Assembly: GCA_019751815.1 (NCBI GenBank)
Contig: JAIEMW010000001.1
Span: 938,197 to 1,002,196 of the forward strand
From: Cyanobacteriota bacterium
GTDB lineage: Bacteria; Cyanobacteriota; Vampirovibrionia; Vampirovibrionales; Vampirovibrionaceae
DNA: 64,000 nt
Direction: 5' to 3'
This document shows positions 27,356 through 31,480 of this stretch, piece by piece. A program made the position numbers and the translations under genes. Below the pieces are notes generated by a model that was not told the DNA's origin, ran no database searches, and saw only the letters and a program-made list of their open reading frames with translations. Within the stretch, counting starts at the first letter, position 1. Every line of letters begins with the position of its first letter.

Positions 27356-28696
27356 TTATACTTCTAATTGACCAAACTTTCTACTATTGGGCCCGGCTCC
27401 TGTCTTTAGCAGAGCCAGAATAATCTGCCTAGCAATACTGTCTTTAGAAGCCTTCGGAAAATGTATCCGCTCAGCGGAAGGGAATACGAGAGTCATCTCA
27501 TTGTCAGACGCTTCAAAGCCAATATCAGAACGACTGACATCGTTCAGTGCCAAGGCATCCACCCCTTTACGGCGGCATTTTTCTTCGGCCAGGGCAATGG
27601 CATCTGGCTCTGTTTCTGCCGCAAAGCCAAGAATGAATTGACCGGGACGTTTTTTGGCCGCAACGCCTTTCAATATATCTTCGGTGGCAGTGAATGAGAC
27701 CTCCCAGGAGGACTTGCCTGATTCTTGTTTGTGTTCTCGTTTATGTTTCTGAGCGCTAGGATTCTCAAGTGTGAAGTCTGAGACCGCCGCGGCCATCACC
27801 AGCCAGTCTGTCTCTTCAAAATAAAGATTGACGACATCGGACATTTCTAAGGCAGAAGCACACCAATGAATAGAGAAACCCGGGCTTGCCTCACCAGACA
27901 GTTTATCTTTTAGCGCTTCTGTTGCAATCAAAGTGACGAGAGCGCCCATAGCATCCAGTTCTCGAGCAAAAGCCAGCCCCATTTTACCCGAACTCCGGTT
28001 GGTGAGGACCCGAACGGGATCGAGCATTTCCTGAGTACCGCCCGCTGTGACCAAAGCTCGAACACCCTTCAGGATCTGTGCATCAGGATGGACTGCACGA
28101 TAAATCGCCTGTAAGATCTGCTCTTGCGTTGGCAGATGCCCGTCTCCCACTTCCCCACAGGCAAGTAACCCTGAAGAGGGGAGTAATACCGACACATCTG
28201 AGCGCTCAGTGAGGGTTTTAATATTAACCTGGGTGGCTGGGTGTTCCCACATCCGGGTATTCATCGCTGGAACGACCAACATTGGTTTCGCTGTCCAGGT
28301 AATCGCGGTTGTGCTCACAGCATCATCAGCCAGACCGTAGGCTAGTTTCGCCAACATATTGGCCGTGGCAGGAATCACCACCAAGACATCGGCATCTTGT
28401 GCCAGTTGAATATGCATGGGAGTTCCCGAAGGACTTAAGCCGTCCATCAACTGTTGTTCCAGCTGACTATCCAAGCTGGGTAAATCACCCAGGTATTCAG
28501 CGCTGGAGCGAATCACCGTTTCCCGTGAGAGTGCTTCTAGTGTCAGTGGGGTAATAAAGGCTTCTGCGCCTTTGCTCATCAGAGGAATAACACGAGTCGC
28601 CCCACGGCGGTAGCATTCACGTATCAAATCACAAACGCGGTAAGCGGCAATTCCGCCGCAAACACCAATAGCAATTGTTTTTCCACTAAAATCCAT
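27356..28696 (-). CDS. coaBC: bifunctional phosphopantothenoylcysteine decarboxylase/synthase
   Basis: Two consecutive steps of CoA synthesis in one 446-aa protein. The N-terminal flavoprotein CoaC domain has GVCGGIAAYRVCDLIR, PAMNTRMWEHP and the substrate-clamp cysteine in LLACGEVGDGHL. The CoaB domain starts at about residue 205 with ALVTAGGTQEMLDPVR and NRSSGKMG, and ends with the nucleotide/metal region LNDVSRSDIGFEASDN. ATG 28696 has no obvious strong ribosome binding site. coaX, an earlier step in the pathway, is encoded at 47.5 kb. Confidence 0.95.
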   Translation of the reverse strand: MDFSGKTIAIGVCGGIAAYRVCDLIRECYRRGATRVIPLMSKGAEAFITPLTLEALSRETVIRSSAEYLGDLPSLDSQLEQQLMDGLSPSGTPMHIQLAQDADVLVVIPATANMLAKLAYGLADDAVSTTAITWTAKPMLVVPAMNTRMWEHPATQVNIKTLTERSDVSVLLPSSGLLACGEVGDGHLPTQEQILQAIYRAVHPDAQILKGVRALVTAGGTQEMLDPVRVLTNRSSGKMGLAFARELDAMGALVTLIATEALKDKLSGEASPGFSIHWCASALEMSDVVNLYFEETDWLVMAAAVSDFTLENPSAQKHKREHKQESGKSSWEVSFTATEDILKGVAAKKRPGQFILGFAAETEPDAIALAEEKCRRKGVDALALNDVSRSDIGFEASDNEMTLVFPSAERIHFPKASKDSIARQIILALLKTGAGPNSRKFGQLEV

Positions 28697-28904
28697 TTGC
28701 TTAGCTTACGACAAAGTCGCCGGTTCAGCATCTCCTGCCTCTGCTTCAAGGGGTGGTATTCTCATCGCCACAAGAGGGGCCATCACAATACGGACTATTA
28801 AAAAACAGGGGTCCGAGCACGGAAACCGTCATCGTGTACAGCCAACAATAATCTAGGTTTAAGGCAGTGCGTGGGATTGAGGCGTTGGAAAATTTAAAAA
28901 AATG
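28697..28904. other. intergenic spacer, no gene seen
   Basis: About 200 bp between the coaBC start and the first sRNA promoter. It must include the coaBC promoter on the minus strand. I see no coding frame or strong structure. Confidence 0.5.
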
Positions 28905-28932
28905 TTGCACTTTTTTTTACTTGATGTATTCT
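28905..28932 (+). promoter_or_regulatory. promoter of sRNA copy 1
   Basis: TTGCAC (28905-28910), 16-bp T-rich spacer, TATTCT (28927-28932). Predicted start of transcription is near 28939, at the base of the 5' hairpin. Confidence 0.6.
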
Positions 28933-28933
28933 A

Positions 28934-29040
28934 CTAACAACAGTTAGTAATAACTTGTTAGCTTAAAAAATCATTTTAGTTTTCCCCCTCACTCCCAACC
29001 TAAAAATTGGATGAGCTCCCATTCTGGGAGCTTTTTTATT
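28934..29040 (+). ncRNA. tandem sRNA family, copy 1
   Basis: Predicted small RNA of roughly 100 nt. The 5' hairpin pairs CTAACA (28934-28939) with TGTTAG (28956-28961) and AGTTA with TAACT around a GUAA loop (28947-28950). A U/A-rich linker leads to the 33-nt block at 28980-29012, identical in copies 3 and 4; it contains CCCCCTCACTCCC and then CCAA...TTGG, able to form a 4-bp hairpin. The terminator is AGCTCCC (29014-29020)/GGGAGCT plus six Ts. Promoter, hairpin, single-stranded C/U block and terminator occur in the order expected for a trans-acting sRNA. Transcription is predicted, not shown. Confidence 0.8.
29014..29040 (+). terminator. terminator of sRNA copy 1
   Basis: AGCTCCC-ATTCT-GGGAGCT, 7-bp perfect stem, followed by TTTTTTATT. 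Confidence 0.9.
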
Positions 29041-29117
29041 GTCCTTAATGTAAAGTTTTGTTTCTATTTCGGCCTTTTTCGGGCAATTTGCAGGCCATTT
29101 TAGACTCTATTGGAATG

Positions 29118-29230
29118 TAAGATTGCTACTACCTACGGTTAGTAATAAACCTTACCCGCAACCCTTGCTTTACTCACACACTCACTCAAACTTTTTCCCT
29201 TGCGACAGATAACAGCGAGGGATTTTTTTT
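29118..29230 (+). ncRNA. tandem sRNA family, copy 2 (divergent)
   Basis: Divergent member. The 5' hairpin GGTTA (29137-29141), GUAA loop, TAAACC pairs with one bulged A, so the loop is retained. The 33-nt block is not conserved. In its place is a C/U/A-rich unpaired stretch with ACTCACACACTCACTC (29172-29187). The terminator has its own stem, CCCTTGC (29197-29203)/GCGAGGG (29215-29221) with one G-U pair, then eight Ts. TAAGAT (29118-29123) may be the -10 box; no clear -35 is seen. The listed left end is only the candidate -10. Confidence 0.65.
29197..29230 (+). terminator. terminator of sRNA copy 2
   Basis: 7-bp stem CCCTTGC/GCGAGGG with an 11-nt loop and a T8 tail (29223-29230). Confidence 0.85.
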
Positions 29231-29249
29231 GCCGATTTATTTTTTGTAC

Positions 29250-29277
29250 TTGATCTTTGAGACATCTGTCGTATAGT
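29250..29277 (+). promoter_or_regulatory. promoter of sRNA copy 3
   Basis: TTGATC (29250-29255), 16-bp spacer, TATAGT (29272-29277). The expected start is near 29284, three bases before the 5' hairpin. Confidence 0.6.
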
Positions 29278-29283
29278 AGTACC

Positions 29284-29390
29284 CACAACAGTTAGTAATA
29301 ACTGTTTGCAAGATAGAATTTTCATTTTCCCCCTCACTCCCAACCTAAAAATTGGATTCCCCTTTATCACAATAGAGGGGATTTTTATTT
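29284..29390 (+). ncRNA. tandem sRNA family, copy 3
   Basis: Cleanest member. The 5' hairpin AACAGTTA (29287-29294)/TAACTGTT (29299-29306) is a perfect 8-bp stem capped by GUAA. A short linker is followed by the identical 33-nt C/U-rich block at 29325-29357, then a terminator with an unrelated stem, TCCCCTTTAT/ATAGAGGGGA, and a T-rich tail. Total predicted length is about 105 nt. It contains no start codon with a ribosome binding site and a meaningful frame, so a regulatory RNA is the best reading. Confidence 0.8.
29358..29390 (+). terminator. terminator of sRNA copy 3
   Basis: TCCCCTTTAT (29358-29367), CACA loop, ATAGAGGGGA (29372-29381), with one G-U pair, then TTTTTATTT. Confidence 0.9.
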
Positions 29391-29515
29391 GGGTTGTTTA
29401 TTAAAGGCAAAGACTGAGCGGGTTGGGGCCTTATTGGTTACTGGAAGACACTATTTGTATACGTCACCAAGTTGTGAACAAATGTAAATCATTGCTGTCC
29501 TTTTGACACGATCCC
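29391..29515. other. spacer between sRNA copies 3 and 4
   Basis: About 125 bp without recognised structure. A consensus TTGACA at 29503-29508 lies too close to nearby -10-like sequences to be a confident promoter. Confidence 0.4.
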
Positions 29516-29545
29516 TTGCCATAATATTCACTTCGATCGTATTAT
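29516..29545 (+). promoter_or_regulatory. promoter of sRNA copy 4
   Basis: TTGCCA (29516-29521), 18-bp spacer, TATTAT (29540-29545). The distance from -10 to the GUAA hairpin is similar to copies 1 and 3. Confidence 0.5.
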
Positions 29546-29550
29546 TACTA

Positions 29551-29655
29551 TCCAAGGTTAGTAATAACCTTTGCTTTTTTTAAGTTTCATTTTCCCCCTC
29601 ACTCCCAACCTAAAAATTGGATCGACCTCTGAACGGATTCAGAGGTCTTTTTTTT
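29551..29655 (+). ncRNA. tandem sRNA family, copy 4
   Basis: The 5' hairpin AAGGTTA (29554-29560)/TAACCTT (29565-29571) is a perfect 7-bp stem with the GUAA loop. The sequence differs from copy 3 on both arms in a compensating way (CAG/CTG versus AGG/CCT). A U-rich linker precedes the identical 33-nt block at 29590-29622. The terminator GACCTCTGAA/TTCAGAGGTC with a CGGA loop and T8 tail follows. Its terminator core is repeated twice more downstream. Confidence 0.8.
29624..29655 (+). terminator. terminator of sRNA copy 4
   Basis: GACCTCTGAA (29624-29633), CGGA, TTCAGAGGTC (29638-29647): perfect 10-bp stem with a T8 tail. Confidence 0.93.
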
Positions 29656-29700
29656 GCTTTTCACAAAAGAATCTGTTCCAGAGGTCGTTGATTTTCTTCA

Positions 29701-29728
29701 CTCTGAACGGATTCAGAGGTCTTTTTTT
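29701..29728 (+). terminator. second, duplicated terminator
   Basis: CTCTGAA-CGGA-TTCAGAG (29701-29718) followed by GTC and seven Ts. It shares its core with the copy 4 terminator 77 bp upstream. Confidence 0.75.
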
Positions 29729-29753
29729 GCTCTTTATAAAGACGGTTGATTTT

Positions 29754-29778
29754 ACGCTGAACGGATTAAGCGTTTTTT
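29754..29778 (+). terminator. third, degenerate duplicated terminator
   Basis: ACGCT (29754-29758) pairs with AGCGT (29769-29773) around GAACGGATTA, with T6 including the last stem base. The CTGAACGGATT core matches the previous two hairpins. Confidence 0.6.
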
Positions 29779-29866
29779 CAAAAGATACAATTCTTAAAAG
29801 AAGAAAGCCCCTTTCAAGACAGCGAGAACCCCCGCCCAATAAGCACTTAAGCACCTTAATTCCTCA

Positions 29867-29884
29867 AGGTTCCCTTGGGAACCT
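29867..29884. repeat. 18-bp perfect palindrome upstream of sepF
   Basis: AGGTTCCC-TT-GGGAACCT. No T-run follows. It could be an operator or a hairpin in a sepF leader. Confidence 0.5.
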
Positions 29885-29889
29885 CACAT

Positions 29890-29934
29890 GACTTTCCCCT
29901 CAGGATGGAATCCGGTGCTAAAATGAGGGGAGTC
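29890..29934. repeat. GC-rich imperfect hairpin upstream of sepF
   Basis: GACT-TT-CCCCTCA (29890-29902) pairs with TGAGGGG-AGTC (29924-29934), leaving a 2-nt bulge, and the loop contains a further GGAT...ATCC. An A-tract, not a T-tract, follows on the plus strand. Confidence 0.45.
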
Positions 29935-30053
29935 AAAAAATCAACATATAAATAGATGACGATCCACTCCTTTTATATACAGAGAGTTAGTTCATCGAGA
30001 GTTAAATCATTCAAATCGACTTAGGATAGAAGTTAGGAGGTTGTAGGACGCGC

Positions 30054-30602
30054 ATGAGTCAAGGATTTATGAGCAAAATTAAAAATTGGGTCTCTGGTGA
30101 CCCCTTCGAAGAAGATGTTTACAGCTTTGAAGATGACTTTGAGCAAGAGCCACGGCTCTACCGCGCAACGGCGTCTAATCCCCGTCCAGAAAGACATGAA
30201 TTAGAGCCTTCCGCCTTAGAAGCTAAGAAGCGTCGGCCCAATCTCAAATTAATTGACCAGCCCAACACCCAAGCCACGCAAGTGGTGGTGATTGAGCCCA
30301 AGGCTTTTGAGGAAGCGCTGGAAATTATTGAACACCTGCGCGCCAAGAAGTCTGTTATTTTGAATCTCCACTTGCTGGATACCAACCAGTCCCAGCGTGT
30401 GGTTGATTTTCTCTCGGGTGCCACCCATGCCATTGACGGCAATCAGCAACGCATCGGGGACGGGGTCTTTATGTTCACCCCAAACAATGTTGTTATCACC
30501 ACCCCGGATGTACATGCGGTGATTAAAGAAGCACCCATTCCTAGTGCCAGCTCTTCTTTGGCTGGAGCTTTGGGAGATACATTCTGGAGCAACCCCCACT
30601 AA
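30054..30602 (+). CDS. sepF: cell division protein SepF
   Basis: Cytoplasmic FtsZ-binding and membrane-binding division protein, 182 aa. The first 16 residues (MSQGFMSKIKNWVSGD) form the likely amphipathic membrane-targeting helix. An acidic linker follows, then the SepF core at ~75-150: VVVIEPKAFEEALEIIEHLR, VILNLHLLDTNQSQRVVDFLSGA and FMFTPNNVVI. AGGAGG at 30035 lies 13 nt before ATG 30054; ATG 30069 is an alternative. SepF is typical of Gram-positives and Cyanobacteria, which helps place the organism. Confidence 0.95.
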   Translation: MSQGFMSKIKNWVSGDPFEEDVYSFEDDFEQEPRLYRATASNPRPERHELEPSALEAKKRRPNLKLIDQPNTQATQVVVIEPKAFEEALEIIEHLRAKKSVILNLHLLDTNQSQRVVDFLSGATHAIDGNQQRIGDGVFMFTPNNVVITTPDVHAVIKEAPIPSASSSLAGALGDTFWSNPH

Positions 30603-30634: not shown

Positions 30635-30667
30635 GACCTGGAGTATCAGTACTTCAGGTCTTTTTTT
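30635..30667. terminator. bidirectional terminator between sepF and a convergent gene
   Basis: GACCTGGAGTA (30635-30645), TCAG, TACTTCAGGTC (30650-30660): 11-bp stem with one G-U pair, flanked by A6 on the left and T7 on the right. Confidence 0.93.
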
Positions 30668-31145
30668 AGGCATGTCGGGCCACTTGTTGCATCATTTGCT
30701 TTAGCCAGCCCGGCTTTTCGTTTACCCAGTAGATGAATTCCTCTTCATCAAAGGTTTGAAGTTCTGGGAACAGCTGACGCAGATACTTATAGAGGCGGGC
30801 CAACTCTTTTGCCCGTTGGACAGGAGATAGGGCACCGTGGCGAATCATTTGTCCCCAAATAGAATAGGCCATACTAGCGGCATTGTTTTGGGACACAACA
30901 TCATCCTTGCTGGCTTTGGCTTGTGCCGCAGCAGGGGTGGGGAAGTACGAGGCGACTTGAGCGGCTTTTTCTGTTTGCAGCGCTTGAGAAGGGGCAATAA
31001 ATTTAGCCTGAGAGGCATTTAAAAAAGCTTGGTTGGCATTTTGGACGGTTTGTTGCACAAAACGCGCTTGCGAACTCTGGTTGAGTTGCGCAGCCTGGAC
31101 GGCTTGTTGGTTTTGAAAACCGGGGTTGTTGCCATTGACTTGCAT
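30666..31145 (-). CDS. unknown Gln/Ala/Asn-rich protein
   Basis: A 159-aa protein I do not recognise. Residues 1-85 are rich in Gln, Ala and Asn and probably disordered or helical (NQQAVQAAQLNQSSQA). The C-terminal half is helical with charged and aromatic residues (AKELARLYKYLRQLFPELQ, YWVNEKPGWLKQMM). No signal peptide. ATG 31145 is clear. It converges with sepF and shares its terminator. Probably lineage-specific. Confidence 0.65.
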   Translation of the reverse strand: MQVNGNNPGFQNQQAVQAAQLNQSSQARFVQQTVQNANQAFLNASQAKFIAPSQALQTEKAAQVASYFPTPAAAQAKASKDDVVSQNNAASMAYSIWGQMIRHGALSPVQRAKELARLYKYLRQLFPELQTFDEEEFIYWVNEKPGWLKQMMQQVARHA

Positions 31146-31480
31146 AATCGAAAATACCCTTTTGAGTTTCTGGGGTCAGGTCGGGCGATATGCCTTCAAG
31201 CGTAAAGGGGATGCCCGAACAGTGACTTATCAGGGGAGTCATTTCATGGGGTCGAATTGTTACTTTACGTTATATAAAAATAAAAATATTTGTAACGAAA
31301 GAATTGCGCTCAAAAGGATATAAAAAAGCAATATTCCGTGTTTTAGTTACAATTATTTACATTTTGACCAATTTCGCAGGAAAAAAACCCGAAAAACTCG
31401 TTTATTAGACATTTCTAGATATTTTTATTACAGTGCTAGAGGACAAAATTGAGTGGAAGACAGTGTGAAGGAAAAGGTTT
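31146..31480. other. A/T-rich divergent intergenic region
   Basis: About 335 bp between two divergently transcribed unknown genes. Its centre is very A/T-rich (31260-31440), consistent with promoters for both genes. No terminator, RNA or coding frame was recognised. Confidence 0.5.

Follow-up and report, generated by a model that had tools for sequence, protein, structure and literature searches.

Several described small RNA (sRNA) families resemble the elements studied here. In Yfr1, two stem-loops enclose an ultraconserved stretch that is unpaired (PMC2190773); this RNA mainly pairs with regions of translation initiation (PMC6974561) and is located between guaB and trxA in most strains (PMC6778093). 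Yfr2-5 form a multi-copy sRNA family whose promoters are bound by a dedicated regulator, PMM1637 (PMC6778093). In Listeria monocytogenes, the homologous copies LhrC1-5 each have a promoter under the response regulator LisR, and their CU-rich single-stranded regions bind target mRNAs, with loop A binding the Shine-Dalgarno region (PMC5880928). PsrR1 of Synechocystis is a trans-acting sRNA inside the regulon of RpaB (PMC13421787). RpaB is an OmpR-family regulator that binds the HLR1 consensus KTTACAWW-N2-KTTACAWW and activates from about -66 to -45 in cyanobacteria (PMC13421787; PMC9241938). Here we analyzed a stretch of 64,000 nucleotides (contig JAIEMW010000001.1, positions 938,197 to 1,002,196; the whole stretch is called the window) from a Cyanobacteriota bacterium of the Vampirovibrionaceae, in which the gap between coaBC and sepF carries an array of four predicted sRNA units. 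We consider it likely that these units represent a new, Hfq-independent family of multicopy trans-acting sRNAs with an exposed C-rich seed, comparable in action to Yfr1 or LhrC, in which an OmpR/RpaB-type switch is probable; transcripts and targets are predictions.

An array of four predicted sRNA units between coaBC and sepF

The window belongs to genome G000 (2.62 Mb). Its coaBC (27356-28696, minus strand) and sepF (30054-30602, plus strand), names that were upheld by family models, enclose a gap of 1.36 kb with four successive modules, all on the plus strand. An earlier note, made from the sequence of the window alone, had described four consecutive units in this gap with a 33-nt block identical in copies 1, 3, and 4. 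The C/U block TTTTCCCCCTCACTCCCAACCTAAAAATTGGAT is indeed present as exact copies at 28980-29012, 29325-29357, and 29590-29622. In these three units the order of parts is the same, with a sigma-70-like promoter, a hairpin with a GUAA loop at the predicted 5' end, a linker, the block, and a terminator, and the terminator stems differ while the block is identical. The description as four units has to be restricted for unit 2, which lacks the block: start-site sequence and terminator are kept, but the C/U block is replaced by the diverged CUCACACACUCACUC. The gap had also been said to hold no credible gene, and in none of the four window units did we find a Shine-Dalgarno sequence before any start codon 5' of the C-rich core.

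A terminator scan of positions 28300-30000 revealed seven terminator-like sites compared to 1.7 (standard deviation 1.2) in shuffled sequences; four of the seven correspond to units 1, 3, and 4 and to an extra hairpin at 29701. Together with the terminator of unit 2 (8 bp, 11-nt loop, 29196-29230), which is visible in the fold and absent from the scan, each unit thus has the separate intrinsic terminator that had been proposed. The terminator hairpin of unit 4, CTCTGAACGGATTCAGAG, recurs twice in tandem downstream (29627-29782), exactly at 29701-29728 and in diverged form at 29755-29779, and these recurrences carry no C/U block.

Folding of the whole units gave z-scores relative to shuffled sequences of -2.9, -2.5, -3.8, and -3.4 for units 1 to 4. 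The hairpin with a GUAA cap, which had been attributed to every unit, folds in units 1, 3, and 4, but the 5' end of unit 2 folds only weakly. A clear promoter-like element in three units agrees with our data: the promoter scan lists units 3 and 4 (four sites compared to 2.7 expected, which alone is not significant), the unit 1 promoter TTGCAC-N16-TATTCT was recognised by eye, and that of unit 2 is weak. The pyrimidine-rich stretch is not strictly unpaired as had been assumed, since in the window copies a weak CCAA/UUGG pairing is possible within the block. This mini-hairpin was rejected as a conserved element, as it is absent in the relatives G001, G004, G010, G011, G014, and G016. The features of the array are as follows (window coordinates, strand, description, basis):

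28905-28932, plus: unit 1 promoter TTGCAC-N16-TATTCT, predicted start near 28939; read directly
28932-28949, plus: unit 1 dyad TACTAAC-AACA-GTTAGTA at the start site; dyad pattern search
28934-28961, plus: unit 1 5' hairpin, 11 bp, 2-nt bulge, GUAA loop, outer pairs may precede the predicted start; fold and co-adaptation of right arms across units
28980-29012, plus: unit 1 C/U block (33 nt); exact repeat, covariance models
29013-29037, plus: unit 1 intrinsic terminator; terminator scan, stem covariation
29047-29064, plus: unit 2 direct repeat of HLR1 type (14/16), -90 to -73 relative to an ill-defined start
29110-29133, plus: unit 2 probable promoter, weak; read directly
29127-29144, plus: unit 2 dyad TACTACC-TACG-GTTAGTA; dyad pattern search
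29137-29151, plus: unit 2 5' hairpin (GGUU/AACC); weak in the fold
29173-29187, plus: unit 2 diverged C-rich stretch CTCACACACTCACTC; covariance model R2 (see below) gives unit 2 13.8 bits, E=0.14
29196-29230, plus: unit 2 terminator (8 bp) with T run; fold
29250-29277, plus: unit 3 promoter TTGATC-N16-TATAGT; promoter scan
29287-29306, plus: unit 3 5' hairpin, 8 bp, GUAA loop; fold
29325-29357, plus: unit 3 C/U block; exact repeat, covariance models
29358-29386, plus: unit 3 intrinsic terminator; terminator scan
29471-29488, plus: unit 4 HLR1-like direct repeat (14/16)
29516-29545, plus: unit 4 promoter TTGCCA-N18-TATTAT; promoter scan
29546-29563, plus: unit 4 dyad TACTATC-CAAG-GTTAGTA; dyad pattern search
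29554-29571, plus: unit 4 5' hairpin, 7 bp, GUAA loop; fold
29590-29622, plus: unit 4 C/U block; exact repeat, covariance models
29624-29655, plus: unit 4 intrinsic terminator; terminator scan
27356-28696, minus: coaBC, conserved divergent neighbour outside the RNA; protein match, family models

Distribution of the family

A covariance search for homologues in related genomes, an outcome on which the earlier note had made its reading depend, was positive. Model R1, built from five sequences of G000 and G003, detected 15 loci at E<1e-6 in nine of the 16 other genomes of the order Vampirovibrionales. The broader model R2 was built from 19 sequences, and 19 of its matched copies sit in its own alignment. 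At E<=1e-3 it matched 14 of the order's 18 genomes, and over the whole class 25 of 382 genomes had a match. Further matches are located at G011:C1:323685 and G007:C1:125336 (E about 1e-4). No R2 match was obtained in four genomes of the order, G008 (94% complete), G012 (87%), G015 (85%), and G017 (81%). A scan of the contig collection for the exact core gave 11 stretches, ten of them in eight assemblies of the order (G001, G003, G005, G006, G009, G010, G014, and G016), with G005 being Vampirovibrio chlorellavorus NCIMB 11383. The eleventh, on an Actinomycetota contig, is probably there by chance (about four expected by a hand estimate) and was disregarded. Viral contigs contained no exact core, and 50,697 phage and 72,556 plasmid records gave no match to similar DNA.

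Outside the order, R2 matched 11 genomes of the class with one locus each (best E=1.3e-6), in a search with filters that, like those of the phylum search below, lose weak matches. L109 and L111, both from one genus (E=1.3e-6 and 1.2e-5), are not convincing; they sit after the end of a reading frame and carry CUCCUCGCCAACUUAAAA. L112, L113, L114, L117, L119, and L120 were discarded as terminators or T/C stretches without the core, and L116 (E=3.5e-4) has the core-like CCCTCACACCAAACCTAAG and no clear terminator. L115 and L118, from another order of the class, were also rejected as family members and look like a different small RNA with UUCCUUCCUUCC. As loci in their own right, both are sRNA-like with promoter, UUCCUUCCUUCC, and terminator, L115 having in addition a TTTTGTAACG box, and possibly represent an analogous, unrelated sRNA family of a sister order. 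Among 386 genomes of the phylum, R2 matched four at E<=1e-4, namely G000, G001, and two genomes with the near-identical loci L193 and L194, which are terminators after a class II fructose-bisphosphate aldolase gene (named in L193 by family models) and were rejected. Of the Vampirovibrionia and Cyanobacteria that the earlier note had named for such a search, only Vampirovibrionales yielded the family, and the other Cyanobacteria searched gave none.

The RNA had not been recognised as a known family, and no Rfam 15 family reaches its gathering score for the units in the whole window and 12 homologue loci, where only tRNAs do so. Matches below this threshold (Spy490380c, Phe_leader, and Yfr10 at unit 1, Phe_leader elsewhere) were rejected. 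The open-access literature searched contained no earlier description of a regulatory RNA of Vampirovibrionales. Judged by this literature and by Rfam 15 the predicted family is new, and it is found only in the order Vampirovibrionales.

Copies and genomic context

At least two strong copies are present in nine of the 14 positive genomes. They are located hundreds of bases apart in G000, G001, G003, G005, G006, G007, and G009; G010 and G014 carry them on different contigs. Each of the paralogues a and b is common to G005, G006, G007, and G009 and to G010 and G014; therefore, those duplications predate these species and the copies are old.

The units are located divergent to coaBC in nine genomes, eight of one family (G000, G001, G002, G004, G005, G006, G007, and G009) and one of another (G011). 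The identity of coaBC was supported by family models in seven of these genomes and by protein match in all nine. In G003, the units precede a 99-aa frame, yggS, and sepF, the latter about 1.1 kb further on, and no unit was found beside coaBC of this genome; the units of G010, G014, and G016 are not beside coaBC either. Among the nine genomes with the coaBC arrangement, sepF is adjacent to the units in the window only. It is located on a different contig than the units in G004, G005, G006, G007, G009, and G011, 8 kb apart from them in G001, and was not found in G002. The SepF proteins of the order are 54-72% and the CoaBC proteins 46-53% identical to those of the window, and the core CUCACUCCCAACC is nearly invariant.

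Evidence for selection at the RNA level

The alignments used here, A5 and A7, were made without unit 2. The units of G007 and G009, which are near-copies of those of G005, and the weak unit of G013 were left out of the counts for core variation, AU stem, promoters, and hairpin swaps. In the terminator stems, 90% of 110 cells are paired compared to 48-66% in slid controls, and 28 cells are changed on both sides. All six pairs show such two-sided changes, which was reached by 15 of 500 shuffles. The covariation score of 0.684 was reached by none of 500 shuffles (0.362, standard deviation 0.045), and slid controls gave at most 0.291. The 5' hairpin has an almost constant left arm (GTTAGTAA..), with which the right arm pairs in varying registers. 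When right arms were swapped among 16 units, the mean folding energy was -4.37 kcal/mol (standard deviation 0.36) compared to -5.96 kcal/mol for the real combinations, and none of 10,000 permutations was as good; the outcome was the same with 13 less related units. Other 5' sequences, which lack GTTAGTAA, are present in the a-type units of G003, G005, G006, G007, and G009 and in the unit of G011; the a-type unit of G003 forms a longer AU-rich hairpin.

In several relatives the core is located in the loop of an AU-rich stem, which has 9 bp in G011 and is shorter in the others. A flank permutation with 14 of 19 units as representatives gave p=0.004, which is suggestive of a presentation of the core in the loop of this stem. 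The core itself hardly varies, at any codon position.

The covarying stems, the fit of the 5' hairpins to their own arms, the near-invariant C-rich core, and the lack of coding capacity support selection at the RNA level, as far as this can be read from sequence. The view that RNA function was selected and that the array is not a recent duplication is thereby strengthened, as compensated variation is seen in linkers, 5' right arms, and terminator stems and the C-rich core is nearly fixed. RNA function may not be the sole constraint on the hairpin arm GTTAGTAATA, because this arm also forms one side of a DNA dyad located at the start site; the hairpin's left arm may have a role in both DNA and RNA.

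A shared promoter signature

The units share a putative promoter signature composed of an HLR1-like repeat and a start-site dyad. We analyzed 23 promoters with estimated starts and -10 elements picked by eye, including two outside the family (those of a 66-aa frame and of a G012 mRNA) and one candidate (first module of G011). The direct repeat WWTGTAAM-N2-WWTGTAAM, which is the reverse complement of the HLR1 consensus known from cyanobacterial RpaB work, is present with at least 13 of 16 positions upstream of 19 of the 23 promoters and in 17 of 20 promoters of the family proper. In 18 of these 19 cases it is located at -81 to -52 of the estimated start, the remaining one being unit 2 with its uncertain start (-90 to -73). 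Six repeats are perfect (16/16), and 17 of the 23 promoters are individually significant at p<=0.025 compared to dinucleotide shuffles. The mean best score was 13.87 of 16 compared to 11.06 (standard deviation 0.18) in shuffles, at most 12.22 with other spacers, and 11.78 in the opposite orientation. No HLR1-like box is present at the second unit of G001, and the promoter of the G012 mRNA scores 12.

In the window, six HLR1-like sites reach 14/16, two of which precede units 2 and 4. A perfect 16/16 repeat (31346-31363, minus strand) is located upstream of a 159-aa frame (30666-31145, minus strand) to which no Pfam or NCBIfam family matches; a frame near sepF of G003 (L095:3641-4114) looks similar. 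Upstream of the G011 sRNA, a second transcription-unit-like module (L215:1250-1450, minus strand) carries a perfect HLR1-like repeat and has a very weak model score of 12.6 bits.

The dyad TACTANC-N4-GTTAGTA at the start site has 12 exact sites in 17 genomes, ten of them at units; of the other two, one lies before a frame in G012 and one elsewhere in G014. The only further dyad of the window genome with at most one mismatch precedes the 66-aa frame of L133 (G000:C1:770 kb), for which no family match was found. Downstream of the frame come a C-rich 3' region containing CUCCUCACUC and CCCCUCACACACUCC and a terminator. R1 matches the locus weakly (E=0.004), and an HLR1-like repeat, weaker than those of the units, is present as well (13/16, p=0.13). 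The locus resembles an mRNA that carries its own copy of the seed. A second match of the 66-aa frame, in G007 (E=0.09), was weak and disregarded. L083 of G006 is a weak R1 match (E=0.0015) in which TACTAACCATAGTTAGGT, the dyad at a place away from the start site, is located upstream of a promoter, as in the upstream part of the G000 770-kb locus. Near position 1064 of L168 in G012, a genome without detectable sRNA copy, a frame read by eye (MIQPVQPSFGQL...) has a -10 region and a dyad arranged as in the sRNAs.

Proposed function and alternative explanations

The function of the RNAs is one that we infer. The array would encode four sibling sRNAs of about 100 nt, each with its own predicted sigma-70-type promoter and terminator, which would be switched by an OmpR/RpaB-type response regulator. 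The 5'-terminal hairpin would protect the RNA, and the C-rich core CUCACUCCCAACCUAA, which in several relatives forms the apical loop of a weak AU stem, would act as seed that base-pairs with G-rich regions of translation initiation in several mRNAs and, independently of Hfq, represses these mRNAs. The presence of several copies might raise the dose or allow responses to different signals, with units 1 and 3 being devoid of an HLR1-like box. A search for Hfq (PF17209) at E<=0.01 gave no match in 17 genomes of the order (all but G009) and matches over the cut-off in five of 14 controls; the pairing would therefore be Hfq-independent.

A number of results weigh against this proposal. For 21 window genes, translation starts are better pairing partners of the block than gene interiors are, but this holds equally for composition-shuffled blocks (p=0.55). 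Complements of the 11-nt core with at most one mismatch occur at 47 sites of the window genome, three of which are the units, compared to 45 for the reversed control. The sole exact complement outside the units is antisense in a long reading frame, and none of the 27 sites examined among the 44 non-unit sites offered a clear 5'-UTR (untranslated region) target; four sites near start codons with Shine-Dalgarno-like sequences were rejected, as they are inside longer reading frames. With regard to the regulator, the boxes at -81 to -52 of the predicted starts seem to be placed further upstream than the activating range of -66 to -45, and they are missing in units 1 and 3. The dyad with at most one mismatch was found 31 times in the 17 genomes compared to 24 times for the reversed control, and with at most two mismatches 11 times in the window genome compared to 20. 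Therefore, the pattern as such is not enriched; the location of its exact copies is striking. Finally, in the window copies the AU stem around the loop is weak.

The lack of a sequence-specific target signal for the 21 window genes would also fit a protein-binding decoy or RNA sponge, which would sequester, through the C-rich core, a single-strand-binding protein or a G/U-rich sRNA, with copy number setting the capacity, similar to what was proposed for Yfr2 with respect to Yfr1. The near-invariant core, which exceeds the usual length of a seed, and the multi-copy state are in line with such a role. With the sole exact core complement outside the units lying in a reading frame, however, there is no obvious partner RNA, and we regard this explanation as unlikely. 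Still less probable is a descent of the units, as highly diverged Yfr1/Yfr10 homologues, from a common ancestor of Cyanobacteria and Vampirovibrionia. The architecture with 5' hairpin, C/U/A seed with CUCAC, and terminator is shared (PMC2190773), and unit 1 has a weak Yfr10 match (23.5 bits with a gathering score of 43, E=0.93). However, neither Yfr1 nor Yfr10 is among the Rfam matches to the 12 homologue loci at E<=3, the locus is a different one, and the Yfr1 model RF01116 exceeded the cut-off in none of 17 genomes of the order, where five weaker matches in four genomes (best E=0.012) are not at units. In the controls, this model exceeded the cut-off in one of 14 genomes, presumably Synechococcus elongatus, which is among the five named ones. 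The R2 search of the 386 phylum genomes at E<=1e-4, with its filters that lose weak matches, likewise gave only G000, G001, and the two aldolase-gene terminators.

Cis-acting leaders or attenuators of sepF would suit the position of the units, which in the window precede sepF on its own strand and in G003 are located about 1.1 kb ahead of it, with the 99-aa frame and yggS in between. As every unit has its own terminator and sepF adjoins the units in only one of the nine coaBC-type genomes, the window itself, this is very improbable. Hardly credible at all are small-peptide genes or a mobile or low-complexity repeat. The near-identical stretches in a tandem array might suggest them, but the core is nearly invariant at every codon position and not preceded by a Shine-Dalgarno start in the four window units, phage, plasmid, and viral-contig searches were without match, the place is conserved, and the changes are compensatory.

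Significance and comparison with known systems

A trans-acting sRNA family of the kind proposed may be the first regulatory RNA family of Vampirovibrionales in the open-access literature searched, with a covariance model, a conserved locus, and a promoter code, and it opens a way to study regulation in the Chlorella predator Vampirovibrio. It points to a possible connection of Vampirovibrionales with the HLR1/RpaB logic of Cyanobacteria and allows one to ask for the role of this circuit without photosynthesis. That an RpaB-type regulator on an HLR1 box drives a C-rich, Hfq-independent seed RNA in this non-photosynthetic sister lineage of Cyanobacteria is a tentative idea and on balance somewhat unlikely. 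If true, the HLR1 control logic of light acclimation would be older than oxygenic photosynthesis or independent of it, and a multi-copy RNA would control e.g., the cell envelope or prey attachment in predators like Vampirovibrio.

Like Yfr1, the units combine a hairpin, an unpaired motif, and a terminator. They differ from it by the core CUCACUCCCAACCUAA (CUCACACACUCACUC in unit 2) instead of the ultraconserved ACUCCUCACAC, by a predicted length of about 100 nt instead of 54-69 nt, and by being multi-copy and often located beside coaBC (divergent in nine genomes) instead of between guaB and trxA; the Rfam model RF01116 does not match them. With LhrC they share several copies, a common seed sequence, and separate promoters, whereas phylum, core, and regulator site are different, and no Rfam family, LhrC being one of them, matched the units at gathering score. 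PsrR1, also represented in Rfam, gave no match to the units in the searches of the window and 12 homologue loci. Its targets are transcripts of photosystem I and phycobilisomes; Vampirovibrionia are non-photosynthetic. The Yfr2 copies, unlike the units, are located at unconserved loci and carry a motif that is nearly complementary to that of Yfr1. In comparison with these systems, the multi-copy trans-acting sRNA is a known kind, and the family, the lineage, and the probable link to an RpaB-like regulator are new.

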